A DNA stretch of 64,000 nt from Mycobacterium sp. UM_CSW. GTDB taxonomy: Bacteria > Actinomycetota > Actinomycetes > Mycobacteriales > Mycobacteriaceae. The position numbers and the translations under genes were made by a program. The stretch covers positions 35,571-99,570 of the forward strand of contig NZ_AUWQ01000035.1 of the NCBI RefSeq assembly GCF_000455205.1, given 5' to 3'. The notes beneath the pieces were generated by a model that was not told where the DNA came from, searched no databases, and was given only the letters and a program-made list of their open reading frames with translations. Of this stretch, positions 34,657 through 52,055 are shown one piece after another; the stretch's first letter is position 1, and each line of letters opens with the position of its first letter.

Positions 34657-34767
34657 CGATGCCCCTTGTGGACTTGTCCCACGTCAGGCTAGCGGAGGTA
34701 CGGGCTGGCAGATCCAGGCCCTCTGACCAAAGCCATATGTCGGATACGACCGGTGTGCCTCTAGGGT

Positions 34768-35988: not shown

Positions 35989-36106
35989 TTCCTCACCATC
36001 CGCTTGGTCATTCCACGCCTTGTCGAGCGGACTCTACCAACCGTCAGCGCGACAAGGGCGTTGCAAACCGGCCCTTTGCGAGTACGTTCTATGACAAACT
36101 CCGACC

Positions 36107-36991
36107 ATGGATAGCGAAGTCGAGCTGCATCTGCGTCGACTCATCTTCGACCGATTGGCCGAACTTATCGCTGAAAACGGTGTTGTCATGAGATCCGAAC
36201 TCGAATCTCTGCAGGTCGGAGATGACACGTATCGACTCATTGATCAAGGCCGCGGCATCAGAAACCCCAAGGACATGCTCGCGACGCTTTCGGTTGTATC
36301 AAGCCCTGACGGCCCATACTCGGACACTCAAATTGGTAATGGGCTTCTTGCATATGACTACAGGAAAGGCAGCAACGATGGAGACAACCGGAAGTTGCGG
36401 CGAGCAGTCGAGCTGGGGCTCCCGATCATCCTGCTGCGCAAGATCCGAGCCACCGTGTACGTACCAGTTTTCCCGGCGTATGTCATCAAGGATGATGGAG
36501 CCAACCGACGATTCTTAATCGCTTTCGACGAAAGCTTCAGGTCGGTAGCCGATCCCCTCCATCTCGATCCGGTCGAGCGTGAGTATGCGCAGCGTTCGAT
36601 CAAGCAGCGGCTGCACCAGCCCGAATTTCGAGGGCGAATCATGCTTGCGTACCGACAGCAGTGCACCATATGCAAACTCAGACACGGCAGACTGCTCGAC
36701 GCCGCGCACATCGTCGGTGACGATAAACCGCACGGTATTCCGTCGGTGGAAAACGGACTGAGCTTGTGCAAGATCCACCATGCGGCCTACGACGCAAACC
36801 TGCTGGGCATTTCGCCTGACTACACCGTCCAAATTAGAGATGAGCTTATGAGCGAAGTTGACGGCCCGATGCTTCTACATGGTCTGCAGGAAATGAACCA
36901 GCGCTTGATCACATTGCCCAAGCGACGTGCTGATCGACCCTCCAAAGAACGGCTAGCGGAACGTTTCGACGAGTTTCTAGCAGCAGGTTAG
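36107..36991 (+). CDS. HNH restriction endonuclease-like protein
   Basis: 294 residues from ATG 36107. C-terminal HNH nuclease: Cys186-x2-Cys189 (CTICKLRHG), His201 (AAHIVGD), Asn216 (VENGLSL), Cys221 and His224/His225 (CKIHHAAYD), a complete zinc-bound beta-beta-alpha site. Residues about 40-140 are a separate domain (GIRNPKDMLATLSVVSSPDG, GNGLLAYDYRKGSNDGDNRK) that recalls the N-terminal parts of McrA-like enzymes acting on modified DNA; that is inference. Low GC relative to neighbours. Divergent from the EEP nuclease (118-bp gap) and convergent with the SNF2 helicase. Confidence 0.85.
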   Translation: MDSEVELHLRRLIFDRLAELIAENGVVMRSELESLQVGDDTYRLIDQGRGIRNPKDMLATLSVVSSPDGPYSDTQIGNGLLAYDYRKGSNDGDNRKLRRAVELGLPIILLRKIRATVYVPVFPAYVIKDDGANRRFLIAFDESFRSVADPLHLDPVEREYAQRSIKQRLHQPEFRGRIMLAYRQQCTICKLRHGRLLDAAHIVGDDKPHGIPSVENGLSLCKIHHAAYDANLLGISPDYTVQIRDELMSEVDGPMLLHGLQEMNQRLITLPKRRADRPSKERLAERFDEFLAAG

Positions 36992-37015
36992 AACGCAGCC
37001 GCGATAGGGCTACGG

Positions 37016-39664
37016 TTATGCGCTCTGACCGAACAACCGCTCCCGCTCGGCGGCGATCACCTCGCGGGCTAGCTCAGCCTCGGAGATGTCGTAGGCCTCT
37101 GGGGCGCTCGCGGCGGTCTCGCTCTCGCGGGCGAATTCTGCGAACAGCGCGGCCTTGCGGGCCCAGATCTCCCGAATCCGTTGGTCGACACCTTCCTCCG
37201 ACAACAGGCGATGAACCTGCACCGACTCCAGCTGGCCCATGCGGCGGGCCCGGGCCACCGCCTGCCACTCCATGGTCGGCTTGACTTGTGGTTCGCAGAT
37301 CACCACCACGGAGGCGGCCTGAATGTTCAGCCCTACCCCGCCGGCCACGATCTGGGCCACCAGCACCGCCCCGTGCCCGGCGGCGGAGAACTCGTCGACC
37401 ATGGTCTGGCGTTTGGTCGCCGGCACCGATCCGGACAGTGGACCGAACACCTGGCCTGGCATCTCGCGGGCTACCTGATCCAGAACATTGCGGAAGTAGG
37501 AGAAAACGACGACCCGCCGACCGTTGTCCTCAGCTTCTTTGACAAGTTCGATGAGCCGCTGCATTTTGCTCGACATGCCGCCCTGGGTCATCGCCGCTTG
37601 TCGCATGGCCATGAAGTTCCCGCCCTGCACAGCCTCCCGGTAGGCGGTGGCATCTTCCTTCGACATTGCCAGCCACTCATCGACCTCGACCAGATCCGGT
37701 AACTCGGTCAGTACGTCTTCCTGGTTGCGCCGCAGATAGGCCGGTGCGACCTGTCGCCGGAATTTGCGCGGCGCCAACTCGTCTGCGTCGATCACCAACT
37801 TCGGCTGGAGGTACAGCACCAGGTTGCGGAACTCCTCGATCCGATTCTCTAGCGGTGTCCCGGTGAGCAGCACCGCCCAGTCCGCACCGTCCAGGCACAG
37901 CCGTGAATTGCGGGTGCGGGCCGCGTCAGGGTTCTTGATGTAGTGGGCTTCATCGATCACGACGCAGCCGATGTCAGACGGCACATTGCGCTGGGCGTGC
38001 AGCCACGGCAACGTCTCGAAAGTGGTGACCGCGACCCCGCCGTCGCGGTCCCACGCCCGAACCGCCGCGCCCCGTTCGTAACCGTGCAGGCGGTACGGGC
38101 GCATCTTGGACTTGGAGGTGACTTCCCGCACCCAGTTCGTCACCACCGCTGCCGGGCAGATCACCAAGAAATGCTGAGAACCCTTGGCCCGTAGATGCGC
38201 CACTACCGCGAGCGCCTCCACCGTCTTCCCCAGACCCATCTCGTCGCCCAGAATCACCTTGCGCTGCACCAACGCAAAGCGGGCGCCGAAGCTCTGATAG
38301 CCGCGCAGCGACGCCAATAGATAGTCGGTGCGCAACTCTTGTGCCCGCACCGCCGCCACGATCTCGTCGGGCAGATCCCCGTGCGCCTTCGCCGCGTCTT
38401 CGGTGATAAAGCCGAGCTCGGCCAGCAGTGCAAAATAATCGGCTGGCCGGCCCAGGAAGTCCTCCCAGACATCCCCGCCCCGCGCTGCCGCGCGGGCATC
38501 GGACATCAACCGGGCCTGTTCGACGACAGCACGGGCCGTCTCCTCGAACTCGGCTACCGTGCGTCCGGCGGCACACAGCACCACGACGCTCACCACTTGC
38601 CCGTACAAGGCGCTGCCCAATGGGGCGAAACCCTTGGCTCGATCCAGGTCGGCTGCCGTGCCGATCGACTTGCGCACCGCGTCCCACACACGCAGCTGCC
38701 GCAACAACGCGGTCGCCTTGGCGCTGCGGTTCTTGATGTCGATGCGCACCGGCATCTCGTCATAGGTGGTCTGCCACAACGTTTGTGCCGCACCCCGGAT
38801 CCGGGTGGCGGAGACACCACCGATGCCGGGAAGACGGTGCAACCCCGGGTATCGCAAGACCTCCGCCACCGTTTTGAGACCCGCGTCGGTCAGCGGCGCG
38901 GTGCGAATCCTCTCCCGCGTGGCCTCCTTCAGCCGGTCCACCGGCATGCCCACGATCAACCGCTCCGTCTCAGCCTTCCGGACCAACATCCCAGCCTCCA
39001 TCGCGGCCGCGCGGCAGCGGGCCTCCTCAGCCAGGGCACTTTGGACCTTCGCGATCGCGTCCGGCAGCGCGGCCAACGCTTTCGCGGCCAAGAGTTGCGG
39101 CGAGTTGCCCAGCTCGGCCAGTCTCGCGCCGAGGCCCACCCAATCAGCCAGCGCATCGGTGACCGCGATCGGTCTTGGCTCAGCCGGCGGAGCCGCGGCC
39201 AGCCTCGCCAGTGTGTCGGCCATCCCGTGGGCCACGAAGTAGTCGCGGAACGCCGTCAGGAACTGCGCCGCTTGAGTTCCCTTATCGCGTGCGGTGCCGC
39301 CGCGGAAGAAGCGGGTCGCTCCGGTCAGTGCACGCACATCGTGCAGCGCGGCAGGCACCTCGGTCGTCAGCCGCTTTAACGCTGTCAAGAAGTCATTGCT
39401 GATCGTTGGCAGCGCGTCGTAGCGAGCCAGATCCCGCAGCAGGGCGGCATCCCGCCCGTATAGCGGCAGGACCCGCCAGGCCCATTCGCCCTCCCGCTCG
39501 GCGACCTGGACAAGCCGGGTGCGTAATGCGTCACGGGCAGCCAGAGACGCCGCAGCGACCGCGCTACGCTGCGCGCGCACCCGCGTGCCCGATGCCACCC
39601 AGGCGGCAACCTCGTCGGTGAGCTGTCGTAGCTGTTGTCGTTCGTCGCGCTTCATGGTTCTCAT
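37016..39664 (-). CDS. SNF2-family helicase with long N-terminal region and HhH motif
   Basis: 882 residues from ATG 39664 (ATG 39655 also in frame). Residues 1-260 are helical and unrecognised; a helix-hairpin-helix follows at about 275-300 (LHRLPGIGGVSATRIRGAA). The SNF2 motor occupies about 455-850: motif I GDEMGLGKT with Lys480, DEAH in CVVIDEAHYIKN, motif III LLTGTPLENR, motif V VAGGVGLNIQAAS and motif VI ARARRMGQ. It moves along double-stranded DNA rather than unwinding it. No nuclease domain seen. It faces away from the helicase-methyltransferase operon across a 116-bp gap that contains a long-spaced inverted repeat, and is probably part of the same defence locus. Confidence 0.85.
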   Translation of the reverse strand: MRTMKRDERQQLRQLTDEVAAWVASGTRVRAQRSAVAAASLAARDALRTRLVQVAEREGEWAWRVLPLYGRDAALLRDLARYDALPTISNDFLTALKRLTTEVPAALHDVRALTGATRFFRGGTARDKGTQAAQFLTAFRDYFVAHGMADTLARLAAAPPAEPRPIAVTDALADWVGLGARLAELGNSPQLLAAKALAALPDAIAKVQSALAEEARCRAAAMEAGMLVRKAETERLIVGMPVDRLKEATRERIRTAPLTDAGLKTVAEVLRYPGLHRLPGIGGVSATRIRGAAQTLWQTTYDEMPVRIDIKNRSAKATALLRQLRVWDAVRKSIGTAADLDRAKGFAPLGSALYGQVVSVVVLCAAGRTVAEFEETARAVVEQARLMSDARAAARGGDVWEDFLGRPADYFALLAELGFITEDAAKAHGDLPDEIVAAVRAQELRTDYLLASLRGYQSFGARFALVQRKVILGDEMGLGKTVEALAVVAHLRAKGSQHFLVICPAAVVTNWVREVTSKSKMRPYRLHGYERGAAVRAWDRDGGVAVTTFETLPWLHAQRNVPSDIGCVVIDEAHYIKNPDAARTRNSRLCLDGADWAVLLTGTPLENRIEEFRNLVLYLQPKLVIDADELAPRKFRRQVAPAYLRRNQEDVLTELPDLVEVDEWLAMSKEDATAYREAVQGGNFMAMRQAAMTQGGMSSKMQRLIELVKEAEDNGRRVVVFSYFRNVLDQVAREMPGQVFGPLSGSVPATKRQTMVDEFSAAGHGAVLVAQIVAGGVGLNIQAASVVVICEPQVKPTMEWQAVARARRMGQLESVQVHRLLSEEGVDQRIREIWARKAALFAEFARESETAASAPEAYDISEAELAREVIAAERERLFGQSA

Positions 39665-39690
39665 CGTTCGAGCACAATCGCCGCGAACAT

Positions 39691-39759
39691 TAGCCGACCA
39701 AACGGACTTGGAAAAACCCCTTACATGTGTCGGACCGATCGATTAACGTGGGTCGGCTA
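39691..39759. promoter_or_regulatory. Spaced inverted repeat in divergent promoter region
   Basis: TAGCCGACC (39691-39699) recurs as its exact reverse complement GGTCGGCTA (39751-39759), 51 nt apart. One copy lies near each divergent start (39664 and 39781). This is the expected form of a paired operator that could control both directions; no regulator gene is adjacent. Confidence 0.45.
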
Positions 39760-39780
39760 TCGAGGTGGGGAGAGTTACAA

Positions 39781-42700
39781 ATGCTATTGGAAGAACTCAA
39801 GCCAGGACTGCGCATCGCCGGGCTGATCCCCGGTCAGGTCGTCACCGTCATCTTCGCGCAGTCCCACGGCGCCGACACTGTTGAATTGACGTTCAAGACT
39901 GCCTCCGGCGGCCTCGACCAGCAGCTGATCTTCCGCAAAGACGAGAACAAGCTATCCGTCGCGCAGACCGGCGGCCGCCCCTTCTCAGCCCCGGCGTCCG
40001 AATTCAAACTCGTCGCTGAAGCTCAGCGCATCACCCTCGCCGGGCTGTACGACCCGATGCTCGCCGTCGCAACGAGCGACGTGCGGCCCCTGCCCCACCA
40101 AATCAGCGCCGTCTACGGCGAACTGCTGCCCCGTACCCCACTGCGGTTTCTGCTCGCCGACGACCCCGGCGCCGGCAAAACCATCATGGCCGGGCTATAC
40201 ATCAAAGAACTGATCCTGCGCGACGACATCAAACGCTGCCTCGTCGTCGCACCCGGCGGCCTAGTAGAACAGTGGCAAGACGAACTATTCTTCAAATTCG
40301 GGCTGCGGTTCGACCTACTTACCAACCAGGCCATCGACGCCTACATCAACGACAACGTCTTTGAGACCCACCCCCTGCTCATCGCGCGGATGGACCAGCT
40401 TTCCCGTAACCAGGAGCTGCAAATCCAAATCCAAGACACCGAATGGGACCTCGTCGTCATCGACGAAGCGCACCGCATGGCCGCCCACTACTTCGGCGGC
40501 AAACTCGAAAAGACCAAGCGCTTCCAACTCGGCGAACTGCTCGGCCGACTCACCCGCCACCTGCTGCTGATGACCGCCACCCCGCACTCGGGCAAAGTGG
40601 AGGATTACCAGCTGTTCCTGACGCTGCTCGACCGGGACCGCTTCGAAGGCAAGAACAGCCAAAACCCCGAAACAACCGGCATCATGCGCCGCATGATCAA
40701 AGAGGACCTGCTCACCTTCGACGGCAAGCGGCTCTTTCCCGAACGCAAGGCCGAAACCGTTCCATACGAGCTCACCCAACTTGAAGAAAACCTCTACGAG
40801 CAGGTCACTGACTACGTCCGCGAAGGCATGAACCGCGCCGACCGGGTCGGTGGCAAACGCAAGAACACCGTCGGATTCGCCCTGACCGTCCTACAGCGCC
40901 GCCTGGCGTCCAGCCCCGAAGCCATCTACAAAAGCCTGGTGCGACGCACCCAACGCCTGCATCGCAAGAAGCAAGAAATCCTCAACGGCACCTACCGCGA
41001 AACCGAACCCACCGTCGATCTCGAAGGCCTCGACGCTGACGACTACAACGCCGAAGAGGTCGAGCAACTCGAAGAAGAACTCCTCGACGCCGCCACCGCC
41101 TCCCAAACTGTCGAGGAACTCGACGCCGAACTCGCCGAACTCGCCGACCTGACCGCACTTGCCAAGCAGGTTCGCGACAGCGGCACCGACCGCAAATGGA
41201 GCGAACTGCGCACCATCCTGGAAGACCACGCGCTAATCACCGACAACGACGGCGCGCCGCGCAAATTCATCATCTTCACCGAACACCGCGACACACTTGA
41301 CTACCTGACCACCCGCATCCGCACCCTCATCGGCAAACCCGACGCTGTCAAAGCCATCCATGGCGGCGTACGCCGCGGCGAACGGCGCTTAATCACCGAG
41401 GAATTCACCAAAAACCCCGAGACCCAGATCCTCATCGCCACCGACGCCGCCGGCGAAGGCCTCAACCTGCAGGCCGCCCACCTCATGGTCAACTACGACC
41501 TGCCCTGGAACCCCAACCGCATCGAACAGCGCTTCGGCCGCATCCACCGCATCGGCCAAGAAGAAGTCTGCCGACTCTGGAACATCGTCGCTTCCAACAC
41601 CCGCGAAGGCGACGTCTACACGCGCCTGCTCATCAAGATCGAAGAACAGCGGAAAGCCTATGGCGGCAAAGTCTTCGACGTCCTGGGCGACGCATTCCAC
41701 GAAACCCCGCTGCGCGAGCTGCTCCTGAAAGCCATCCGCTACGGTGACGACCCCCAGGTCCGCGAAAAGATGCACGAGGTCGTCGACGCAACCGTCTCCG
41801 AAGGTCTACCAGAACTACTCAAAGAACGCGCCCTGGCCGCCGACCACCTCGCCGAAGCCGACCTCGCCGAACTGCGCGCCGCCATGGACGAAGCCCGCGC
41901 ACGCCGGCTGCAACCCCACTACATCGAACTGGCCTTCAAAGCCGCCTTCACCCGCCTCGGCGGGCGCATCGCCAAACGCGAACGCGGCCGCTACGAGATC
42001 CCCCACGTGCCCCCCCAGATCCGTGCCAGCAAGTATCAGCCCATCGCCACCAAATACGACCGCGTCACCTTCGACCTCGAACACGTCCGACCCGAAAGCC
42101 AAACCCGAGCAGATCTGCTCGCCCCCGGCCACCCACTGCACGACGCCGTCATGGAGGAAACTACCAAACTGCTTGGCGGAGCACTGAATTACGGGACCGT
42201 GCTGGTCTCCTCCACCCTCGAAGAGCCGCATCTCCTGGTCGGCGTGATCGAAGAAGTCTGCGACGCCACCGGCGCCAGCATTTCCCGACGTTTCGGCTAC
42301 GCCTTCGTCGACAGCTACGGCACCGTCAGCCACGCCGGCCCTGCGCCCTACCTCGACTGCGTCGCCGCACCCGACACCCCCGCCGTCACAGCCGCCCGCC
42401 AGCTGCCGTGGCTCGCCGAAGCCGAAGACCGCGCCATGAGCTGGATCATCACTAACCAACTCCCCGGCTACCTCGCCGAAGTCCAACCCCGCCGCGCCGC
42501 CGAACTCGCCAAGACTCGCGCCCTGGTCATCAAACGGCTCGAAGGCGAACGCGACCGGCTACTGTTCGACTCAGCCATCGCAGCAGAGAAAGAGCACGCC
42601 GGCGACAAGCCCAAAGAATCGTCAGAAAGCCTCAACCGCAAAGCCGTTGACCTCGACGTGCGACTACGTAAACGTCTCGAGCTGCTCGACCAACAAGAAC

Positions 42701-43191
42701 TCATGTCCACCAAACCACCGCGTATCATCACCGCTGCCCTCGTGCTGCCCATCAGCATGCTCGAACACGAGATACCGGCCTCAGCGCCAGTGCACGCCAA
42801 AGAGACCAAAGACGTCGAACGCCGCGGTGTCGACCTGGTCCTCGCATACGAGAAAGCACTTGGCCGCCAACCGGCCGAACAAACGTTCACCAACAAAGGA
42901 TTCGACATCCTGTCCACCACACCGAACGGTGATACCTACCGCATCGAGGTCAAAGCCCGCCTCGAAGGTGCCACCGACTTCTACGTCACCCACAACGAAG
43001 TCCTCCTCGGCAAGAACGCCGTCCCTCGCTACCGACTTGCCCTCGTCAAAGTCGACCCACGCGGACCTGAGCATGACCAAGTCCGCTACCTCGACCATCC
43101 CTTCGCCACAACAGAACTCGGCGACTTCGAAGCCACCGGCATACGCGGCGACTGGAACAAAATGTGGGCCAAGGGAACTGAACCGTTCTGA
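39781..43191 (+). CDS. SNF2/DrmD-like helicase with C-terminal DUF3883-like domain
   Basis: 1136 residues from ATG 39781, with GGGGAGAG before it; the frame opens 18 codons earlier. Motif I is DDPGAGKT (127-134), DEAH at 228-231 (VVIDEAHRM), motif III LMTATPHSG, then a charged coiled linker (about 410-470), helicase C motifs KFIIFTEHRDT, ATDAAGEGLNLQ and QRFGRIHRIGQ. Residues about 1010-1110 (VERRGVDLVLAYEKALGR, GDTYRIEVKARLEG) match DUF3883, a nuclease-like fold. Overall this is the BrxH/DrmD-like helicase type of BREX and DISARM loci. First gene of a three-gene operon; stop overlaps next start (TGATG). Codon use is strongly C-ending and differs from flanking genes. Confidence 0.87.
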   Translation: MLLEELKPGLRIAGLIPGQVVTVIFAQSHGADTVELTFKTASGGLDQQLIFRKDENKLSVAQTGGRPFSAPASEFKLVAEAQRITLAGLYDPMLAVATSDVRPLPHQISAVYGELLPRTPLRFLLADDPGAGKTIMAGLYIKELILRDDIKRCLVVAPGGLVEQWQDELFFKFGLRFDLLTNQAIDAYINDNVFETHPLLIARMDQLSRNQELQIQIQDTEWDLVVIDEAHRMAAHYFGGKLEKTKRFQLGELLGRLTRHLLLMTATPHSGKVEDYQLFLTLLDRDRFEGKNSQNPETTGIMRRMIKEDLLTFDGKRLFPERKAETVPYELTQLEENLYEQVTDYVREGMNRADRVGGKRKNTVGFALTVLQRRLASSPEAIYKSLVRRTQRLHRKKQEILNGTYRETEPTVDLEGLDADDYNAEEVEQLEEELLDAATASQTVEELDAELAELADLTALAKQVRDSGTDRKWSELRTILEDHALITDNDGAPRKFIIFTEHRDTLDYLTTRIRTLIGKPDAVKAIHGGVRRGERRLITEEFTKNPETQILIATDAAGEGLNLQAAHLMVNYDLPWNPNRIEQRFGRIHRIGQEEVCRLWNIVASNTREGDVYTRLLIKIEEQRKAYGGKVFDVLGDAFHETPLRELLLKAIRYGDDPQVREKMHEVVDATVSEGLPELLKERALAADHLAEADLAELRAAMDEARARRLQPHYIELAFKAAFTRLGGRIAKRERGRYEIPHVPPQIRASKYQPIATKYDRVTFDLEHVRPESQTRADLLAPGHPLHDAVMEETTKLLGGALNYGTVLVSSTLEEPHLLVGVIEEVCDATGASISRRFGYAFVDSYGTVSHAGPAPYLDCVAAPDTPAVTAARQLPWLAEAEDRAMSWIITNQLPGYLAEVQPRRAAELAKTRALVIKRLEGERDRLLFDSAIAAEKEHAGDKPKESSESLNRKAVDLDVRLRKRLELLDQQELMSTKPPRIITAALVLPISMLEHEIPASAPVHAKETKDVERRGVDLVLAYEKALGRQPAEQTFTNKGFDILSTTPNGDTYRIEVKARLEGATDFYVTHNEVLLGKNAVPRYRLALVKVDPRGPEHDQVRYLDHPFATTELGDFEATGIRGDWNKMWAKGTEPF

Positions 43192-45992
43192 TGGAGGGGA
43201 CGTTGTCCGATAGTGCGCCAAAGCGGAAGCTTATCGAGGTGGCGCTGCCGCTTGAGGCGATCAACCGAGAGTCGGCTCGGGAAAAGTCGATTCGACACGG
43301 CCATCCCTCAACACTTCACCTCTGGTGGGCGCGCCGACCACTCGCCGCCGCCCGCGCTGTGTTGTTCGCGCAACTCGTAGACGATCCCTCTGCCCGACCC
43401 GACGAGTTCCCCACCGAGGAACTTCAGCGCAAAGAACGCAACCGGCTCCACAAGCTCATCGAGCGGCTTGTCGTGTGGGAAAGCATCCGGAACGAAGAGC
43501 TTTTCGCCGAGGCGCATGCCGAGATTCTTAAATCGACTGATGGCAACCCTCCGCCGATCCTCGACCCGTTCGCTGGCGGAGGGACGATTCCACTGGAAGC
43601 TCAGCGGCTCGGGATGGAAGCCTACGCCTCCGACCTGAATCCGGTTGCGGTACTGATCAATAAGGCGCTCATCGAGATCCCACCGAAATTCCGCGGCCAA
43701 CCGCCAGTGTTCCCCGGGCTCGCAGACTCGGAAATCCGATCGTGGAAAGGTGCCGAGGGGCTTGCTGCAGACGTACGAGCGTACGGCCGGTGGGCTCGAG
43801 ACGAAGCCGAGAAACGCATCGGACACCTGTACCCGAAAGCCACGCTGCCCGACGGATCAAATGCAACTGTCATTGCATGGATTTGGGCACGCACGGTGAC
43901 TTGTCCCAACCCAGCATGCGGAATTGACATGCCGCTCGTTCGGTCGTGGTGGCTCGGTAAAAAGAAGGGCAAAGAGTCGTACATCGTTCCAACGATCGTG
44001 GATGACAGAACGGCGCCTGGCGGGCGTCGTGTTCGGTTTGAGATCGGTAATGATCCCTCGACGGGGCCGATGTCATCCAACGACGGAACAGTCGCGAGGA
44101 CAACCGCCACGTGCGTAGCGTGCGAATCACCCGTTCCGCTGCCGTACGTTCGCGCCGAAGGTCGGGAAGGTCGTTTGCGTACCGAGCTAATGGCAATCGT
44201 TGCTGAGGGGCAACGCCGGCGGGTGTACCTGGCGCCGACTGCTCTGCAATCAGATGCGGCGAGGATCGGGCGTCCTGCATCCGTGCCGGTAGGCTCGTTG
44301 CCACCGCACGGCCTGAGCCCGGATAGTCACCAGACGATTCGAATATATGGATTCTATGAGTGGGCCGACCTCTTCACCAACCGCCAACTCGTCGCGCTCA
44401 CCACCTTCAGCGACCTCGTCGCCGTGGCCCACGACCGTGTCCTCGCCGACGGCGGGCCGTCCGACTACGCCGATGCAGTCGCTACGTATCTGGGATTCGC
44501 GGTTAGCCGACTTGCGAACAAGTCATCCTCAACCTGCTCCTGGGATTCCAGCACCAAGATGGAGGCGGTGCGCGGCGTGTTCGCGCGTCAAGCCCTACCT
44601 ATGACATGGGATTTCGCCGAGGCGAATCCCTGGGGCGGCTCAGGTGGCGATTATTTGGAAGACGTTGAGTGGGTGGCGCGTGCCGTCGAACGTGTACCCG
44701 CGACTAGACCCGGCTTCGCTCAACAGGCCGACGCACGTCGCGTTGTGATGCCAGCGAACACTCTCATTTCTACAGATCCGCCCTATTACGACAACATAGG
44801 TTATTCGGACCTTTCGGATTTCTTCTACGTCTGGCTCCGCCGCTCACTTCGAGGCATCTATCCGGACCTTTTATCGACCATGTTGGTGCCCAAAGCGGAT
44901 GAACTCGTCGCGAATCCGCATCGGCACGACGGCAGGGAAGGCGCCCGACAGTTCTTCGAGGACGGCTTCAAATCCGTTTTCGCCAGCGCGAGGGCGACTG
45001 CGACCGCGGACTTCCCGATTACCGTGTATTACGCCTTTAAGCAATCCGAATCTGACGATGATGGCCAGGCATCCACCGGTTGGGAAACTTTGCTCGAAGG
45101 CATGATCCAGAGCGGTTGGGAGATCACATCGACCTGGCCGATGCGAAGTGAGCTCAGCAATCGGATGCTGGCAAGCGGCACCAACGCGCTCGCGTCATCG
45201 ATCGTGCTTTCCTTGCGGCCACGTAGGGCTGACGCTCCCACGACGGACAAACGCAGCTTCATCACAGCACTGGAGGCCGAACTTCCCGACGCGCTTCGCA
45301 AGCTGCAGCAGGGGCGAATCGCGCCAGTGGATTTGCCGCAAGCAACTATTGGTCCCGGAATGGCTGTCTTCAGCCGCTATGCGGCGGTGCTTGAGCCTGA
45401 CGGCAAACACATGAGTGTCCGCTCAGCGCTTGCCCGCATTAATGAGATTCTCGACCGTGTTTTGAATGAGCAAGAAGCCGACTTCGACCCCACCAGCCGA
45501 TTCGCCATCGCGTGGTATCGCGCGCACGGGTACAACTTTGGCAAGTACGGAGACGCGGAACTGTTGGCGAACGCGCGCGGAGTCGTCGTCCAGGCGCTTG
45601 ATCGAGCAGGTGTACTCATCAGCCGCGCGGGCAGAGTCAACCTTCTCAAGCCGAATGATCTTGGTCCGAACTATGACGTGGTAGCGGATTTGCATACAAG
45701 TAATTGGGAGGCTTTGCATCACCTTGTCAGAGTGCTTGATGCGGAAGGCATTGAACGAGCTGGTGAATTCCTAAGAGCAGCGCTTGGTCGAACAGACGGA
45801 ATCATCGATGCCGACCTCATCAAGGAGCTCGCGCATCTGCTGTTCCGGGTCGCCGAGACGAACGGCTGGACCAAAGACGCGCTGAGCTTCAACGGCCTCG
45901 TCACGAGCTGGCCGGAAATCGTGGACACCGCACATACGAAAACTCCAAGAACCTCCCAAGGTTCATTTAATTTTGAGGAAGACGCAGACTGA
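43191..45992 (+). CDS. DUF1156-domain adenine-specific DNA methyltransferase
   Basis: 933 residues from ATG 43191, overlapping the helicase stop; TTG 43203 with GGAGGGG five bases before it is an alternative. DUF1156 at the N terminus (KRKLIEVALPLEAIN, HPSTLHLWWARRPLAAARAV). SAM motif I DPFAGGGTIPLEA (125-137); catalytic motif IV DPPYYDNI (529-536), the DPPY form of N6-adenine or N4-cytosine methyltransferases. Between them are Cys pairs (CPNPACG, CVAC) suggesting a zinc ribbon. This is the COG1743 type used by BREX type 3 as PglXI. Likely role: modifies host DNA for self-recognition. The next gene starts 1 bp after its stop. Confidence 0.88.
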   Translation: MEGTLSDSAPKRKLIEVALPLEAINRESAREKSIRHGHPSTLHLWWARRPLAAARAVLFAQLVDDPSARPDEFPTEELQRKERNRLHKLIERLVVWESIRNEELFAEAHAEILKSTDGNPPPILDPFAGGGTIPLEAQRLGMEAYASDLNPVAVLINKALIEIPPKFRGQPPVFPGLADSEIRSWKGAEGLAADVRAYGRWARDEAEKRIGHLYPKATLPDGSNATVIAWIWARTVTCPNPACGIDMPLVRSWWLGKKKGKESYIVPTIVDDRTAPGGRRVRFEIGNDPSTGPMSSNDGTVARTTATCVACESPVPLPYVRAEGREGRLRTELMAIVAEGQRRRVYLAPTALQSDAARIGRPASVPVGSLPPHGLSPDSHQTIRIYGFYEWADLFTNRQLVALTTFSDLVAVAHDRVLADGGPSDYADAVATYLGFAVSRLANKSSSTCSWDSSTKMEAVRGVFARQALPMTWDFAEANPWGGSGGDYLEDVEWVARAVERVPATRPGFAQQADARRVVMPANTLISTDPPYYDNIGYSDLSDFFYVWLRRSLRGIYPDLLSTMLVPKADELVANPHRHDGREGARQFFEDGFKSVFASARATATADFPITVYYAFKQSESDDDGQASTGWETLLEGMIQSGWEITSTWPMRSELSNRMLASGTNALASSIVLSLRPRRADAPTTDKRSFITALEAELPDALRKLQQGRIAPVDLPQATIGPGMAVFSRYAAVLEPDGKHMSVRSALARINEILDRVLNEQEADFDPTSRFAIAWYRAHGYNFGKYGDAELLANARGVVVQALDRAGVLISRAGRVNLLKPNDLGPNYDVVADLHTSNWEALHHLVRVLDAEGIERAGEFLRAALGRTDGIIDADLIKELAHLLFRVAETNGWTKDALSFNGLVTSWPEIVDTAHTKTPRTSQGSFNFEEDAD

Positions 45993-45993
45993 C

Positions 45994-48900
45994 ATGGCGC
46001 TGAGCAACCGTGACCGCATCAATAAGATGTTCGAGATTGTCGCCCCTCCTCTGGATGACTACATCTCCTTAGTGATCGGACAGGGCGACCCAGCGGTTGG
46101 CGCGGCCTGGCCGAAACTCGTGCGGGCCAAAGATGGGACATCTAGCGCTAAGACGTACAACGCTCACGACCCGCAGGTGCAGTTCCGGATGCTCACCGAG
46201 TCGAACATCACCGCTGGATTCAAGAAGGGCTGGTATCCCTTCAATAAGACTCTGGGCAAGGCTGGCGAGTCGTTCGCCATTGAACTTCGCGAAGTCCGAA
46301 ACAACTGGGCCCACAACGGCATGTTCACGGACGACGACGCGTACCGCGCCCTGGACACGGGCGAACGTCTGCTGAGACTTATCGGCGCGGCCAACGAAGC
46401 CGACGAAGTCCGGAGCATGCGGCTCAATCTCCGCCGTGTCACCGCCGACAAAGAAGACAAAAAAGTCCTCAGGGCCGCCGTCGACAACCCAGAGGCTGCC
46501 GGGCTAAAGGCCTGGCGCGATGTTCTACCACCCCACGATGACGTGGCAACAGGCAATTTCGCCGCTTCCGAATTCGCCGCCGACCTTTACAAAGTCGCCT
46601 TCGGCGGCGAACAGGACTCCGGCTATGCCAACCCTGTCGAATTCTTCCAACGCACATACCTCACCGAAGGCCTCAGTGACCTCATTGGCCGCGCGGTTCG
46701 ACGACTCTCCGGCGATGACAACGCTCCCCCAGTCATCAACCTGCAGACCAACTTCGGCGGTGGCAAAACACACTCCATGCTCGCCTTATGGCACGTCGCG
46801 GCTGGCCTGCCGATTGGCGAATTCCCGCAAGCCACACAAGATCTCCTGTCCGCGAACAAGTACAGCGGCGGCAACGTCAACCGCGTCGCCATCGTCGGCA
46901 ACCACTTCAGCCCCGCCGGGATCGAACGGGACGGCACCCACATCAACACCACGTGGGGTGAATTAGCCTGGCAGCTTGGAGGCCCGGAAGCCTATGCCTA
47001 CGTCGCTAAAGCCGACGCCGACCGCACCCCACCCGGCGACGCACTTGCCAAGCTCCTGGCCGCCTACGCCCCCACCGTCATCCTGATCGACGAATGGGTC
47101 GCCTACGCACGCTCCCTCGTCGGTCGTGACGACCTGGCCGGCGGCACCTTCGACGACCAATTCACCTTCGCCCAATTGCTCACCGAAGCCGCTAAAGCCA
47201 CATCCGGTGTGCTGGTGGTGATCTCGATTCCCGCCTCGGAAAGCGGCGACGCCGCCGACAGGGTTGTCGCCGGCAACGCCGAAGAGGTCGGCGGCGCCCA
47301 CGGACTCGAAGCACTCAAACGCCTGCAGAATGTCGTCCGCCGGGTCGCCGATCAGTGGCGCCCCGCGTCCTCCACCGAGGCATACCAGATCGTCAAGCAG
47401 CGACTCTTCACCCAGCCCGACGCTGTGGCGCTCGCCTCGATCAACGCCACCGCCCGCGCCTACGTCGACATGTACCGCAAATACACCGACGACTTCCCCC
47501 GCGAATCCCGCGACACCGCATACGAAGACCGCATCAAACGCACCTACCCCATCCACCCCGAACTGTTCGACCGGCTCTATGAGGAATGGTCATCGCTGGA
47601 GCGATTCCAGCGCACTCGCGGCGTGCTGCGACTGATGAGCACCGTCATCCACGCCCTGTGGGTTGGCGAAGACGCCTCACCGCTCATCATGCCCGGATCC
47701 GTCCCCCTGGCCACAGGCAGCGTCAACTCCGAACTTACCCAATACCTGCAGGATTCGTGGAAAGCTATCATCGACGCCGACGTCGACGGTCCTAACTCGG
47801 AGCCTGCTCGGATCGACAAAGACAAGCCGCTATTCGGGCAACGCTCACTGACCAAACGTCTTGCCCGCACAGTGTTCTTCGGAGCCGCCCCGACCATCGG
47901 CGCCGCACACAAAGGCCTGGAAACACAGCGCGTATTCCTCGGGACCGCCATCCCCGGTGACGTACCCGGCAACTTCCACGCCGCACTCACCCAACTCGCC
48001 GACCGCGCCACCTACTTCTACACCGGTTCCGGCAAATACTGGTATGACCTGCAGGCCAACATCACCCGCACCGCGCGCGACCAAGCTGAACGGCTACACA
48101 AGGAAGACGTCTGGGCCGAAATCGTCCGCCGCTTGCAAAGCCAAGCCCGCAGCCGCGGAGACTTCACCGGCGTGCATGTCTGCCCGGAAACCAACGGCGA
48201 CATTCCCGACACCGACGAAGCACGCCTGGTCATCCTGCACCCGAAGGTCGCCCATAAGAAAGGCACCGACTCCCCAGCAAAAGAGTTCGCACACATGGCA
48301 ACCGAGCATCGCGGCAGCGCCAACCGCACCAACCGCAACACGCTCGTCTACCTCGCGGCCGACGAAGCGCGGCTGGAAGAACTCGATACCGCAGCCCGCG
48401 ACTATCTCGGCTGGACACATGTCCTGAACAATGCAGCGGACCTCGACCTCACCGAGAACCAGAAAAACCAAGCCTGTCAACGTCAAACGACGGCTGAGCA
48501 GACCGTGACCGCCCGACTACTGCAGACCTTCACCTGGGCGCTGGTTCCTGCCCAGCCGGACCCCGGTGCACCGTTTATCATCCGCGAGACCAAGGTCGAA
48601 GGGCAGTCGGAATCGCTGGCCGAACGGGTCTCTCGACGCCTCGGCAACGACGGAGATCTTTCAATCCGGCAGGCTGCGGCCACCATTCGGTTGGCGATTA
48701 ATAAGGTTCCGCAAATCTGGAAGGACGGCCACGTCTCCCTCGGGTCACTGTGGGCGCTGTATTGCCAGTACCCGTACATGCCGCGGCTGCGCGACCGCAC
48801 CGTACTAAACGAGGGTATCGTCGACATGCCGATGCATTGGGACGTCGAAGCATTCGCCTTGGCCACAGCTTTCGACAAATCGGCGCACCGGTACATCAAT

Positions 48901-49317
48901 CTGTGGATCTCAGGGGACAAGAACGCCGCCCCTGCGCCGACCGATGCGGTCTTGCTGGTGCAACCGGAGGTGGCGCTCAAGCAACGTGAAGAAGAACCCC
49001 CACACGGTGGTGGTGATAAGCCTCCATATGGCGGCGAGCCAGGGTCGGCGAAACCCCCTTCGATTGACGTCGCGTTTCCGCCCGCGAAAAAGCGCTTCTA
49101 CGGAGTCAAAACGCTTAGCTCTGACAAAATTGCCCTGGACTTCAAAAACATCGCAGACGAGATCATTTCGAATCTTCGGGAGCCGAGCACCAGCCTCGTA
49201 GTCAAGATCGAGATTGAGGCCACGGACGCGTCCGGCTTCGACGAAAGCAAAATTCGCACCGTGTCGGAGAACGCCAGAACCTTGAAGTTCGATCAGTCAG
49301 GCTTTGAAGAGGACTGA
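45994..49317 (+). CDS. DUF499 P-loop ATPase with N-terminal Swt1-type HEPN domain
   Basis: 1107 residues from ATG 45994. Residues 1-140 are a Swt1-family HEPN domain with the RNase motif R-x4-H intact (RNNWAH, Arg102 and His107). The DUF499 ATPase follows: Walker A NFGGGKTH (Lys258) and Walker B VILIDEWVAY (Asp366, Glu367), with a Sensor-like LVVISIPASES. The C-terminal half (about 700-1107) contains FTWALVPAQPDPGAP and a Pro/Gly-rich linker before a final beta domain. DUF499 proteins are the BrxC/PglY-like ATPases of BREX-type systems; HEPN-Swt1 is a nuclease module. Together the protein could be both sensor and effector. Third gene of the operon, ended by a strong hairpin at 49383-49430. 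Confidence 0.86.
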   Translation: MALSNRDRINKMFEIVAPPLDDYISLVIGQGDPAVGAAWPKLVRAKDGTSSAKTYNAHDPQVQFRMLTESNITAGFKKGWYPFNKTLGKAGESFAIELREVRNNWAHNGMFTDDDAYRALDTGERLLRLIGAANEADEVRSMRLNLRRVTADKEDKKVLRAAVDNPEAAGLKAWRDVLPPHDDVATGNFAASEFAADLYKVAFGGEQDSGYANPVEFFQRTYLTEGLSDLIGRAVRRLSGDDNAPPVINLQTNFGGGKTHSMLALWHVAAGLPIGEFPQATQDLLSANKYSGGNVNRVAIVGNHFSPAGIERDGTHINTTWGELAWQLGGPEAYAYVAKADADRTPPGDALAKLLAAYAPTVILIDEWVAYARSLVGRDDLAGGTFDDQFTFAQLLTEAAKATSGVLVVISIPASESGDAADRVVAGNAEEVGGAHGLEALKRLQNVVRRVADQWRPASSTEAYQIVKQRLFTQPDAVALASINATARAYVDMYRKYTDDFPRESRDTAYEDRIKRTYPIHPELFDRLYEEWSSLERFQRTRGVLRLMSTVIHALWVGEDASPLIMPGSVPLATGSVNSELTQYLQDSWKAIIDADVDGPNSEPARIDKDKPLFGQRSLTKRLARTVFFGAAPTIGAAHKGLETQRVFLGTAIPGDVPGNFHAALTQLADRATYFYTGSGKYWYDLQANITRTARDQAERLHKEDVWAEIVRRLQSQARSRGDFTGVHVCPETNGDIPDTDEARLVILHPKVAHKKGTDSPAKEFAHMATEHRGSANRTNRNTLVYLAADEARLEELDTAARDYLGWTHVLNNAADLDLTENQKNQACQRQTTAEQTVTARLLQTFTWALVPAQPDPGAPFIIRETKVEGQSESLAERVSRRLGNDGDLSIRQAAATIRLAINKVPQIWKDGHVSLGSLWALYCQYPYMPRLRDRTVLNEGIVDMPMHWDVEAFALATAFDKSAHRYINLWISGDKNAAPAPTDAVLLVQPEVALKQREEEPPHGGGDKPPYGGEPGSAKPPSIDVAFPPAKKRFYGVKTLSSDKIALDFKNIADEIISNLREPSTSLVVKIEIEATDASGFDESKIRTVSENARTLKFDQSGFEED

Positions 49318-49382
49318 TGTCGCGCAGAGCACGTCTCACCGGACCCAACCCCTTGACCTAGGTAGGTTTTCCATCGGGCGCT

Positions 49383-49430
49383 ACTCATGCACCAACAACG
49401 GCAGATATCCGCCGTTGTTGGTGCATGAGT
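49383..49430. terminator. Strong hairpin, bidirectional terminator (hairpin D)
   Basis: ACTCATGCACCAACAACGGC (49383-49402), loop AGATATCC, then the exact reverse complement (49411-49430). The perfect 20-bp stem lies 66 bp after the DUF499 stop and directly abuts a minus-strand stop codon at 49432, so it can end both the plus-strand operon and the minus-strand ParA-SIR2 unit. Confidence 0.88.
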
Positions 49431-49431
49431 C

Positions 49432-49710
49432 TTAGACGCAACCGTTGGAGTTGGCCTCAGACGACGACAGCGTAGTCCGCTCCAGACGCGCTGATTCACC
49501 CCCCGGGCCTGTCTCGTAGATCTCGGACGAAGCTCCGGACAGACCCATGGTCATCCCGATCGTAAAGAGATTGCATAAGTTGCGTATCCACATTTCGTGG
49601 CCCGGTGTAAAAGTGACGGGACCAATGCTACTTGTTCGGCAATGCCGGCAAGTCGAAATTTGCGACCATTCGGGGACGTCCCGTCGCCGCAACGGATCGC
49701 TTGATTGCAC
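49432..49710 (-). CDS. Possible small protein or gene remnant downstream of the SIR2 gene
   Basis: 92 residues from GTG 49710, ending against hairpin D. The segment WSQISTCRHCRTSSIGPVTF has a CxxC pair like the start of zinc-ribbon/DUF4145-type proteins, and WIRNLCNLFTIGMTMGLSG is hydrophobic. It lies 61 bp after the SIR2 stop on the same strand, where a third gene of that unit would be. No good ribosome site is seen, composition is low-GC, and a neighbouring frame is also open, so it may be a degraded gene. Weak call; alternative is noncoding leader to the terminator. Confidence 0.33.
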   Translation of the reverse strand: MQSSDPLRRRDVPEWSQISTCRHCRTSSIGPVTFTPGHEMWIRNLCNLFTIGMTMGLSGASSEIYETGPGGESARLERTTLSSSEANSNGCV

Positions 49711-49771
49711 GCCAGGATGAGCTTCTCGAGAAGCGGGAGTACCCTGCGTCCGGGCAGATAGAACTGAAATG

Positions 49772-50629
49772 CTACGAGACCGCCCGGTACGAATCCACGC
49801 TGTCGGCTAGGTCTCGTAAGGCTGCAACAACTTCTCCATGTTGACCTGCCGGGTACTCAAGAAATTTTATGTTGTGCGTTTCTTCTATCGCCCGGCGCAC
49901 CGATAGATGCCGACCGGCTTCTACGATTGCGAAGTGCGTATGCTGGCTCGGAGCTGAAATGTTCACATTCTGCAGTAGTAACTCGATATCTGGATCTCCG
50001 TTGAAGCCTGAGCCAATAAATAAAAGCGTGCTTGTCAGGAAGATCGCGTCCAGGGCTGCAAAGAATTGCGGATAATCTCTTCGCGCAGTGAAGTATTGCC
50101 GCCTGGTAAGCACGACTTTCTGCGGATCGGAGACGCACCCATGAGCCTTCACAATCAGTCGCCTTGTGGACCGGAGATCATTAACGAGGTGACCTTCGTA
50201 GTAACGGCACACGTTGTATCCGGCAGCCGCTGCGCCCTGCGTAGCCAAGGACTCGTATATGCGGTCGTAGTTGGTTGTTATTACGATCTTCGGATCGATT
50301 CTCAACACAAGTTGATGAAGTTCCGAGGGCTGAAAGCCTGGATCTTCGAGCTCTTGGCGCAGAAAGAGGCCGAAGTCTGCTGAACCGAGAGCGTCAACTA
50401 AGATTTGTGCCGCATCAAGAAAGGCGCGTTGCTGCAATTGCTCTTCGGCGGCACTACGATCATCACCGTTATCGATCCTGTCGATGCCTCGTTGAAGAAA
50501 GTCCACCCAGCCCGGCGGCCGGACTCCATTTACATTTACCGATGAGGCGGAGGCGCCAGAGCCTAGGACGAGGACGCACCGCCTTTCGGCAATTTCGGTC
50601 AGTAGAGATTGCGACCATGGGATCGCCAT
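49772..50629 (-). CDS. SIR2-like domain protein (probable NAD-consuming defence effector)
   Basis: 285 residues from ATG 50629. A near-complete SIR2 fold with little else: GSGAS (23-27), TTNYD with Asn121, KAHG with His164 and LFIGSGFNGD (205-212). Asn and His are the residues required for NAD hydrolysis in phage-defence SIR2 proteins (ThsA, DSR, SIR2-pAgo types). The zinc module of deacetylase sirtuins is absent, which fits the NADase group. Its start codon immediately follows the TAG of the ParA-like gene (TAGATG), with GGAG upstream, so the two are translated together. Expected action: NAD depletion upon a trigger sensed by the partner. GC is lower than in the mycobacterial background. Confidence 0.87.
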   Translation of the reverse strand: MAIPWSQSLLTEIAERRCVLVLGSGASASSVNVNGVRPPGWVDFLQRGIDRIDNGDDRSAAEEQLQQRAFLDAAQILVDALGSADFGLFLRQELEDPGFQPSELHQLVLRIDPKIVITTNYDRIYESLATQGAAAAGYNVCRYYEGHLVNDLRSTRRLIVKAHGCVSDPQKVVLTRRQYFTARRDYPQFFAALDAIFLTSTLLFIGSGFNGDPDIELLLQNVNISAPSQHTHFAIVEAGRHLSVRRAIEETHNIKFLEYPAGQHGEVVAALRDLADSVDSYRAVS

Positions 50630-51655
50630 CTAAACTCCTACGTTTTGGGCAAGCGCTTCGCTGACCGCCTCGATCGTGCGAATGTAGTTTTGCTGTTGGC
50701 CGTACTGTCCTCCCGCCAATCCGTCTGAACTCTGCAAGTCCGCAATCGGAGCGTTCACTGATTGAGCAAGCGGGATGAGACTGAACATATTGGGAACGTC
50801 TCCTAACCGTGCAGCCGAAATGTCCAGTTCGGCGGGCATGAACTCACCCAAACTGTTGGCAACTTCGTCCGGGATCTCGGAGAGGATCCGTTCAAAAGCA
50901 AGAGTTGGCCTGCGGACGCCTTTTTTCGACTTCGTAATATACTGCTGGACGGTATATCCGACAAACATTGCTGCCGATGCGGATTCGGTCGAAATTCCGA
51001 ACTTTTCGAGCGCTCCGGGGTGCCTTCCTTGACACAACTCAATACCTGTGGTGTATACGCCTTTCCAATTGCGCAGCCACTCTGCAATATTCCTAATGCC
51101 AACGATTGAGAAAATGTCTGCGCCCATCGGCGTTACAAAAAAGTCCGCTCCGATCAGCACAGTTCTGTTCAATGAACCTAAGCTCGGTCCTACATCAAAG
51201 AAAATGAGGTCATACCGCTTTTTATACTCACGAATTAGAAACTTAACCCAATTCGAGCGACGGATTCCTCCGATGTCCCCTCCCGCAGCCTCGCTCCAAG
51301 ACCGGCTTAGCAAGTCCTCAATTATGGACATCCTCGGATGACCAGGCATCAAGTCCACCCGGAAGCGGTTGAGTGAGGATTTTACTGGTTCGACATCGAG
51401 CTCTATGTCCGAGTCGCCAAGTTCGATCGGACGAACTATGTCGTTTATTGTCGGCTGGGCGGATGCCTGCCCGTTCCAGTACATTTCGACCCATTGATCG
51501 TTATCCAGTACAAGCTGAGTGGTATTGCACTGCGGGTCGCAGTCGACCAGAAGAACACGAAGGCCTCGAACCCGAGACAGGTGCGAGGCAACGTTACAAG
51601 CAAGAGTGGTCTTTCCGACGCCGCCCTTATTATTAAAAAAGACCACGCTTTTCAT
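50630..51655 (-). CDS. ParA/Soj-family ATPase, partner of SIR2 protein
   Basis: 341 residues from ATG 51655 (a TTG lies one codon before). Deviant Walker A NNKGGVGKTT with signature Lys10 and Lys15, Walker A' LVDCDPQCNTTQL, and Walker B-like LIFFDVGPSLGSLNRTVL. Longer than chromosomal ParA (about 260-290), with inserted segments at about 55-85 and 200-250. No ParB gene or parS-like repeat is adjacent, which argues against a partition role. Directly coupled to the SIR2 gene. By analogy with other defence pairs, this nucleotide-switch ATPase may be the sensor or activator for the SIR2 effector; inference only. Confidence 0.85.
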   Translation of the reverse strand: MKSVVFFNNKGGVGKTTLACNVASHLSRVRGLRVLLVDCDPQCNTTQLVLDNDQWVEMYWNGQASAQPTINDIVRPIELGDSDIELDVEPVKSSLNRFRVDLMPGHPRMSIIEDLLSRSWSEAAGGDIGGIRRSNWVKFLIREYKKRYDLIFFDVGPSLGSLNRTVLIGADFFVTPMGADIFSIVGIRNIAEWLRNWKGVYTTGIELCQGRHPGALEKFGISTESASAAMFVGYTVQQYITKSKKGVRRPTLAFERILSEIPDEVANSLGEFMPAELDISAARLGDVPNMFSLIPLAQSVNAPIADLQSSDGLAGGQYGQQQNYIRTIEAVSEALAQNVGV

Positions 51656-52055
51656 CAATTGCTATTCCTCTAGCATTCCTCGCGTCCGCGACTATTTCTG
51701 TTCGGTCGCCCGAGCGGGGCGGTCGCGTCTCTAGCAGTGTCGTTGGCGGAGCATAGCGTGCACCCGACGGCAAACTGAAGCAACAGGCCGCGTGTCGTGG
51801 GCTCCCGAGAGCCATGGCTACCGACTACGCAGAAAGAAGTTAGTCGGCCGGTCTGCGCGCGGATGCGACGCTACGGCTTCAACGCCCAACGGCTTTCCTC
51901 AGACAGCCCAAACTGGCGCCGGGAAATGTCGCTTTCCTTCGAAGGAAGTCGTCGTATCGGCGCGCAGCGCCGTCGCCGCCGGGCCGATCGGCATTATCAC
52001 CGTGTCACACGCGCCCGGCGTGACCACCGGTCAGGCTGCCAAGGATTGACCACCG
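51656..52055. other. 400-bp gap at the right edge of the defence island
   Basis: No convincing gene. It holds the promoter region of the ParA-SIR2 unit on the left. Palindromic TTCCTTCGAAGGAA lies at 51934-51947. The short open frames on the plus strand (e.g. to 52049) have no ribosome site or recognisable content. GC rises to mycobacterial level after about 51850, so the island boundary is probably in this gap. No direct repeat matching the left edge (34657-34767) was found by eye, and no tRNA. Confidence 0.6.

Follow-up and report, generated by a model that had tools for sequence, protein, structure and literature searches.

The locus examined here raises the question of what kind of defence system is formed by three closely packed genes that encode a SNF2-type helicase, a DUF1156 methyltransferase and a HEPN-DUF499 ATPase, and that recall BREX without PglZ. 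It lies in Mycobacterium sp. UM_CSW, in a 64,000-nucleotide stretch of contig NZ_AUWQ01000035.1 (hereafter the window), and a first-pass annotation of that sequence had suggested a reduced or distinct defence class. Profile matches identify the operon instead as the already described Hma system, alias Type-1 BREX-related (BR) system, and as no new class. Judged from its genes alone, the locus is probably best read as a restriction-modification-like Hma defence operon extended by a divergent second SNF2 translocase, which is encoded head-to-head with the helicase gene.

Over nearly the full length of the profiles, the three proteins match the PADLOC models HmaA (1283 bits), HmaB (1058 bits) and HmaC (841 bits), and their genes are contiguous, which is the joint encoding of HmaA, HmaB and HmaC by which an Hma system is recognized. 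Hma (helicase-methylase-ATPase) was named as a candidate system in 2021 by Payne et al., with 1,638 instances in 26 phyla (PMC8565338), and was renamed in 2026 as the Type-1 DUF499-centred BREX-related system, with 2446 taxa, 1370 of which carry a HEPN fusion (PMC12839542). A 2013 table had already placed HEPN-DUF499 in an operon with a fusion of SNF2 helicase and DUF3883, the latter termed 'a novel REase domain' (PMC3710099), and a 2020 paper presents a form of the HEPN-DUF499/SNF2 operon from diverse archaea (PMC7641849). A described system of exactly this composition, which the first-pass annotation had itself named as the observation that would count against a reduced or distinct class, was looked for and exists in the literature under two names (PMC8565338, PMC12839542).

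Much else in that annotation holds. The three open reading frames lie where it placed them, hmaA and hmaB overlapping in TGATG (43189–43193) and a single base separating the hmaB stop from the hmaC ATG, and we likewise regard them as one operon. Its domain assignments are borne out by Pfam, which finds SNF2/Helicase_C and NOV_C (which we take to be the DUF3883-type domain) in HmaA, DUF1156 in HmaB and HEPN_Swt1 with DUF499 in HmaC. Kinship to BREX type 3 without PglZ, in a Mycobacterium, was also judged correctly: a PF08665 search of the whole genome gave no match, while the control search matched in 2 of 14 named genomes. Eight proteins of the surrounding island were scanned with PADLOC and Pfam (those of 34768–35988, 36107–36991, 49772–50629 and 50630–51658, the second helicase, HmaA, HmaB and HmaC). 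Among the PADLOC matches listed for them (the best 25 for each of the two helicases), BrxA, BrxF, DrmB and DrmC are lacking, as had been claimed, and no other BREX or DISARM gene appears. The suggested membership in the NCBIfam 'anti-phage-associated' group is ruled out by scores far under the cut-offs (176 bits against 1200 for DUF499 and 131 against 1000 for DUF1156); that trio, which has a phospholipase-D helicase, seems to be the sister Type-2 BR system.

The second SNF2-family helicase, hereafter the partner, was omitted from the first-pass annotation. Its Walker A (GDEMGLGKT) and DEAH motifs are present, and its first ~400 amino acids are variable and without Pfam match, containing a GxG helix-hairpin-helix-like stretch. 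In PADLOC it matches the DpdE model PDLC02852 at 867 bits and the DrmD model PDLC02627 at 454 bits. The corresponding NCBIfam scores are 83 bits against a cut-off of 500 for DpdE, which excludes a true DpdE, and 52 against 610 for DrmD. No other Dpd gene is among the matches listed for the island proteins, DpdA not having been sought genome-wide.

Association of the partner with HmaA is evident at two taxonomic levels. At full length and at least 57% identity, the partner occurs in 8 of 148 genomes of the genus (G013 has two fragments of it, 74% and 41% identical) and adjoins hmaA in all eight (p 1e-10). Across the 374 genomes of the class, an unbroken full-length partner is found in 16, HmaA in 33 and both in 12 (p 4e-11); the 16 leave out G237 (partner in two frames), G418 (42% identity, in tandem with HmaA) and shorter relatives. 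Its position can be judged in 15 class genomes, and in 11 of them the partner belongs to an Hma or HmaA locus (10 head-to-head, one downstream of hmaC), a contig edge preventing its placement in G294. These genome searches scored few candidates per genome (2 to 6), so that misses are possible. In 31 head-to-head loci the gap between alignment ends is 63–160 bp, up to 600 bp having been permitted. Pairwise distances of the partner follow those of HmaA (r 0.667, 26 loci, 0/2000 permutations), as does every 90-residue window of it (0.60–0.70), although such distance correlations, here and below, leave host phylogeny uncontrolled and are no proof of interaction. The four-gene block is also found on two plasmids (Arthrobacter, Rhodococcus), where the same stretch holds integrase or recombinase genes; p232 of Arthrobacter sp. 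Rue61a (L235) is a plasmid with this block. We found no description of the partner as a companion of Hma in the literature searched, to which the supplements of PMC12839542 did not belong.

A more extreme form of the association is a head-to-head pair of HmaA (66–71% identical) and partner with no HmaB or HmaC in 18–20 kb, seen in six class genomes (L185, L187–L191). Genome-wide searches for HmaC (E 1e-60, two candidates per genome) and HmaB (E 1e-5, all candidates) gave no match in five of them (G344, G447, G439, G302, G215), the HmaB search covering ten pair and partner genomes with every candidate scored; the pair alone is found in 5 of 374 class genomes, and G439 and G447 belong to one genus. 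The sixth, G244, has a distant HmaB and HmaC on another contig. The pair-only HmaA scores 1256 and 1298 bits in PADLOC (two scanned) and keeps NOV_C in the three scanned. Another genome of the genus of G439 and G447, G504 (L241), also has the pair, with HmaB and HmaC absent in 19.9 kb, and its flanks are common with the G439 and G447 loci, from which the pair appears to be inherited vertically in that genus. There, G503 combines the full set and an incomplete partner, and 2 of 6 genomes lack the partner. Among L187, L188 and L241, the ratio of non-synonymous to synonymous substitution (dN/dS) is 0.15–0.22 for HmaA and 0.25–0.32 for the partner, and the two genes flanking the pair in L187/L188 give 0.19 and 0.35; the pair-only form is under purifying selection. 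In the more remote G418, HmaA (43%) and partner (41%) overlap in tandem, with no HmaB or HmaC match in 19.9 kb; this HmaA gives no NOV_C match and lacks the active-site pattern. An HNH gene 46% identical to that of the window follows the G418 pair directly (L251), which is a single suggestive case, because the window and G418 alone among the loci searched have it; as a fixed part of the system the HNH gene was rejected on the same grounds.

Several observations weigh against the partner, or the pair, as a regular part of Hma. HmaA at 80% identity or more occurs in 12 of 148 genus genomes, and 4 of these 12 lack the partner (9–14 kb upstream covered). Among distinct loci recovered via HmaC whose sequence ahead of hmaA spans 1.4 kb or more, a head-to-head partner is present in 6 of 9 genus loci (the window left out) and in 15 of 30 genome_contigs loci; two loci with less than 1.4 kb upstream were left out of the latter set, and L074 (partner downstream of hmaC) and L055 (39% partial match) were counted as not head-to-head. 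On the HmaA tree, on which L074 and also L201, with its partner divided between two frames, count as partner-bearing, partner presence requires at least 12 changes, compared with 19.1 in shuffles (0/500 as low). These changes, and the absence of the partner from many complete HmaABC loci, including the four genus genomes, make it an option and no requirement. In four of the 16 class genomes (G408, G368, G493, G470) the partner is not adjacent to HmaA, and in G237 a copy split over two frames lies far from a 44% identical HmaA; shorter relatives of ~700–830 amino acids stand without HmaA in 9 of 10 stretches (L202–L210), L211 having a 30% match. As for the pair, HmaA of G244 contains two stops, and dN/dS of more distant pair-only loci reaches 0.32–0.47, whereas HmaA, HmaC and partner of full systems range over 0.04–0.15, so that the constraint on the pair is weaker.

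The partner could be conceived as a stand-alone defence or repair gene that resides in the same islands, has a common divergent promoter with hmaA and plays no role in Hma. This is a serious possibility, if a less probable one than companionship: half of the HmaABC loci lack the gene, relatives of it are found apart from HmaA, and its mean conservation (0.63) is under that of HmaA (0.82) and HmaC (0.81). Against an independent gene speak its adjacency to hmaA in every partner-bearing genome of the genus and in 11 of 15 class genomes (11 of 16 with G237), a gap narrower than permitted, distances that follow HmaA in every window, and persistence of the pair without HmaB and HmaC and its tandem overlap in G418. 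The occurrence of the partner with HmaA alone hints at a separate two-gene core. We tentatively consider that HmaA and partner constitute a two-translocase immune module without methylase, and that actinobacterial Hma would be this module joined to a swappable HmaB and a BrxC-like HmaC, an idea to which we give less than even weight.

The swappable character of HmaB is suggested by its history. Pairwise distances of HmaA and HmaC are tightly correlated (r 0.975, 49 loci; r 0.871 for the 41 closest), and every 90-residue window of HmaC follows HmaA (0.50–0.71), whereas HmaB distances are almost unrelated to those of HmaA (r 0.13; 261/2000 permutations as high). In the 41 closest loci, 90-residue HmaB windows that start ahead of residue 720 give r −0.08 to 0.16 against HmaC, window 721–810 is intermediate (r 0.21, 8/300 permutations), and windows from residue 781 reach r 0.37–0.50 (0/300). 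Over all loci, residues 701–933 follow both HmaA (r 0.635) and HmaC (r 0.820; 0/500 each). Saturation does not explain the decoupling, since residues 1–90 have a mean identity of 82%; between L040 and L070, synonymous divergence is 0.26 for hmaA and 0.40 for hmaC, and saturated for hmaB. A variable region (~241–525) lies between the two HmaB motifs, DPFAGGGT and DPPY. Speaking against a clean separation, whole HmaB retains some correlation with HmaC (r 0.339, 20/2000 permutations), and window 481–570, the highest before 720, stands at r 0.16 (6/300), so that the decoupling is strong but not total. HmaB is thus a mosaic, in which residues 1–720 are almost unlinked to the history of HmaA and HmaC and the last ~150 follow them, as would be expected if the methylase and recognition part were swapped by recombination and the C-terminus held by the complex. 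HmaB is then probably the exchangeable specificity part and may alone set specificity. The variable end of HmaC (961–1060) was considered as sharing target reading with the HmaB variable region and rejected (r −0.02, 41 loci).

The active sites of all three proteins are conserved. Counts refer to distinct homologues after removal of near-identical duplicates (7 HmaA, 7 HmaB, 6 HmaC, 2 partner) and leave out hits that cover less than 85% of the query or score below 300 bits, and 12 translations scored as short, some of which probably owe this merely to an alignment starting ahead of the start codon (the short HmaA of L032, L066 and L199 were restored for neighbour counts). In HmaA, whose closest solved relative by sequence is RapA, GKT and DEAH are present in 59/59 and each of the NOV_C catalytic residues in 58/59 (D1060, E1074, K1076, numbered from GTG 39727). 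DPPY, the mark of an amino-methylase (acting on N6 of adenine or N4 of cytosine) and not of a 5-methylcytosine (m5C) enzyme, is found in 51/51 HmaB. HmaC has R109 and H114 of the R-x4-H HEPN motif (numbered from TTG 45973), and its Walker A lysine, each in 58/58.

Invariance of the HEPN residues would suit an abortive infection system in which the HEPN RNase kills or arrests the host, methylation is a mere off-switch and DNA cutting is secondary. We consider this unlikely: the NOV_C catalytic residues are about equally conserved, and a 2024 paper on Halomonas reportedly gives the credit to the nuclease domain carried by the SNF2 helicase. A suicide role has been proposed in PMC12839542 and PMC3710099, but by the former's count 1076 of the 2446 Type-1 taxa lack the HEPN fusion. 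Descent from a BREX type 3 system degraded by loss of PglZ, BrxA and BrxF is most improbable: HmaA, HmaB and HmaC do correspond to BrxHII, the methylase of type 3 and BrxC (PMC12839542), and HmaA scores 313–342 bits against BrxHI/BrxHII models, but it reaches 1283 bits with its own model, catalytic motifs are conserved, the published phylogeny sets DUF499 ATPases in clades separate from BrxC (PMC12839542), and a three-gene form present in 2446 taxa (PMC12839542) is a lineage and no remnant.

For the extended Hma operon we propose the following scheme. Self would be marked by HmaB through methylation of host DNA at a motif that its own variable region determines, and HmaC, the BrxC-like DUF499 ATPase, would assemble the complex on unmarked DNA, as published. 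HmaA would then translocate and cut DNA with its C-terminal PD-(D/E)XK domain, a putative nuclease, and RNA cutting by the HEPN domain of HmaC, with growth stop, may serve as a fallback. Recombination would exchange the first ~720 residues of HmaB, HmaA, HmaC and the last ~150 residues of HmaB remaining together; HmaB would probably set by itself the specificity of both marking and cutting, and its C-terminus is where docking probably takes place. The role of the partner is probably that of a second motor, or of a recruiter, acting together with HmaA, and, because the pair persists without HmaB and HmaC, the two may form a methylation-independent module.

Hma, or Type-1 BR, is reportedly very widespread (26 phyla, PMC8565338; 2446 taxa, PMC12839542), and its mechanism is in these sources mostly inferred. 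A mosaic HmaB predicts that exchange of its N-terminal part shifts both the methylated motif and the phages restricted, with HmaA and HmaC unchanged. The fourth gene and the pair-only loci would offer a natural separation of the effector from self-marking, and the pair would escape any search that demands HmaA, HmaB and HmaC together. If a two-translocase module exists, discrimination of self from non-self would fall to its motors where the pair stands alone (DNA ends or stalled forks being examples of what they might read) and to methylation in the full form.

The features of the locus are collected in the table below. Nine HmaA N-termini align from ATG 39781, which supports that start, GTG 39727 being an in-frame extension. 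The strong hairpin that the first-pass annotation placed at the operon end is real (arms of 20 nucleotides at 49383–49402 and 49411–49430; −45.3 kcal/mol over 71 nucleotides, z −8.8, 0/200 shuffles equally stable), and a 16-base piece of its arm, allowing one mismatch, occurs in the window only as these two arms. Its role as a terminator is unproven, since it has no T-run and is absent from the output of the terminator scan.

Features of the Hma locus (positions in the window)
Feature	Position	Strand	Description	Basis or remark
hmaA	39781–43191	+	SNF2/RapA-like translocase with C-terminal NOV_C PD-(D/E)XK-type domain	PADLOC, Pfam, motifs
hmaB	43191–45992	+	DUF1156 amino-methyltransferase (DPFAGGGT, DPPY)	PADLOC, Pfam, motifs
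hmaC	45994–49317	+	N-terminal Swt1-type HEPN and DUF499 AAA+ ATPase	PADLOC, Pfam, motifs
Partner	37016–39664	-	Second SNF2-family helicase, 882 amino acids	Head-to-head with hmaA
Divergent intergenic region	39665–39780		116 bp to ATG 39781; 62 bp to GTG 39727	
Inverted repeat	49383–49430	+	Perfect 20-bp repeat downstream of hmaC	Possible transcription end
HNH_2 nuclease gene	36107–36991	+	Possible auxiliary effector	Convergent with partner
Island	34676–52055		~17.4 kb between conserved chromosomal genes	GC and flank comparison

The island has a GC content of 0.54–0.66, mostly under that of its flanks (0.65–0.70). In G001 the same flanking genes are separated by 3.4 kb, and in G017 they have 14.9 kb of other genes between them, which identifies a variable chromosomal site holding different DNA in different relatives. 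The G017 island (L245, 3013–16310) contains a 1643-residue open reading frame and, both recognized by eye, a DUF262-like gene and a cytosine-methylase-like gene. At the edge of the window's island lies an endonuclease/exonuclease/phosphatase-family gene (34768–35988, minus strand). HNH genes related to that of the window (33–40%) are on nine plasmid records, which likewise speaks against the HNH gene as a fixed part. Beyond the operon, a ParA-like ATPase gene (49772–50629) is directly followed by a SIR2-like gene (50630–51658), both on the minus strand; eight plasmid records match the ParA protein, and the three of these that were examined (Salmonella, Vibrio, Spirosoma) all show the same adjacency, so that the two genes may be a defence module.

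Other neighbours do not qualify as conserved parts: when eleven flank proteins were compared with L026–L079, that of 32852–33700 had two matches (32–34%) and the other ten none. A search of the phage collection for hmaA (E 1e-40) gave no match. Two kinds of GmrSD-type (DUF262) gene stand between hmaB and hmaC in many relatives (L030, L034, L051, L055, L057, L074 and others), Pfam finding only the N-terminal domain in the 614-residue protein of L034 and both domains in the 563-residue protein of L074. A small DUF1643 gene separates hmaA from hmaB in eleven loci, assigned by Pfam in L063 and by similarity to L063 in the others. The window operon has neither insert. Swt1-type HEPN domains also occur in ~2100-residue open reading frames of six genomes of the genus (G004, G012, G024, G047, G124, G140; L015, L016, L018, L019, L024). 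These proteins, and genus helicases 41–43% identical to HmaA (residues ~22–890), were set aside as belonging to other systems. HEPN-transglutaminase-Vsr proteins are listed in the 2013 paper (PMC3710099).

Among known systems, DISARM (DrmA, DrmB and DrmC beside helicase and methylase) is rejected on the lack of DrmB and DrmC among the matches listed for the eight island proteins, no genome-wide search having been made; HmaA matches the DrmA and DrmD models at scores far under that of its own. With the DrmD helicase of DISARM and the DpdE helicase of Dpd, the partner has the SNF2 core in common. BREX membership is ruled out by the absence of PglZ from the genome. BREX type 3 has BrxHII, methylase and BrxC as counterparts of HmaA, HmaB and HmaC, and differs in PglZ and in BrxA and BrxF, which are not among the matches listed for the island proteins. 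In BREX, specificity is set by PglX (PMC11341690), and HmaB would act likewise. The marks of Type-2 BR, a DUF3780 gene and an HKD nuclease on the helicase, gave no Pfam match in the eight proteins, small open reading frames being outside the scan.

Type-1 BR comprises, as here, a HEPN-DUF499 ATPase, a DUF1156 methylase called an N6-methyltransferase and a SNF2 helicase with an active C-terminal restriction endonuclease domain (PMC12839542). Of its published characters, which also include an N-terminal Tudor domain on the helicase and a C-terminal RRM on the ATPase (PMC12839542), the window offers a predicted PD-(D/E)XK domain in NOV_C with conserved catalytic residues, a DUF1156 methylase with DPPY and a DUF499 ATPase with HEPN. 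GmrSD-type nucleases are named there as auxiliaries of BREX and BR systems; the main text, taken without its supplements, mentions no DpdE, DrmD or second, additional or auxiliary helicase, and describes three core genes where the window block has a fourth (PMC12839542). With Hma the agreement extends to identical genes in identical order and nearly full-length model matches (PADLOC; PMC8565338). The 2021 paper treats HmaB as an m5C methylase (PMC8565338), whereas DPPY here points to an amino-methylase, and the published Hma has three genes, whereas here, and in many actinobacteria, a fourth, head-to-head SNF2 gene accompanies them.

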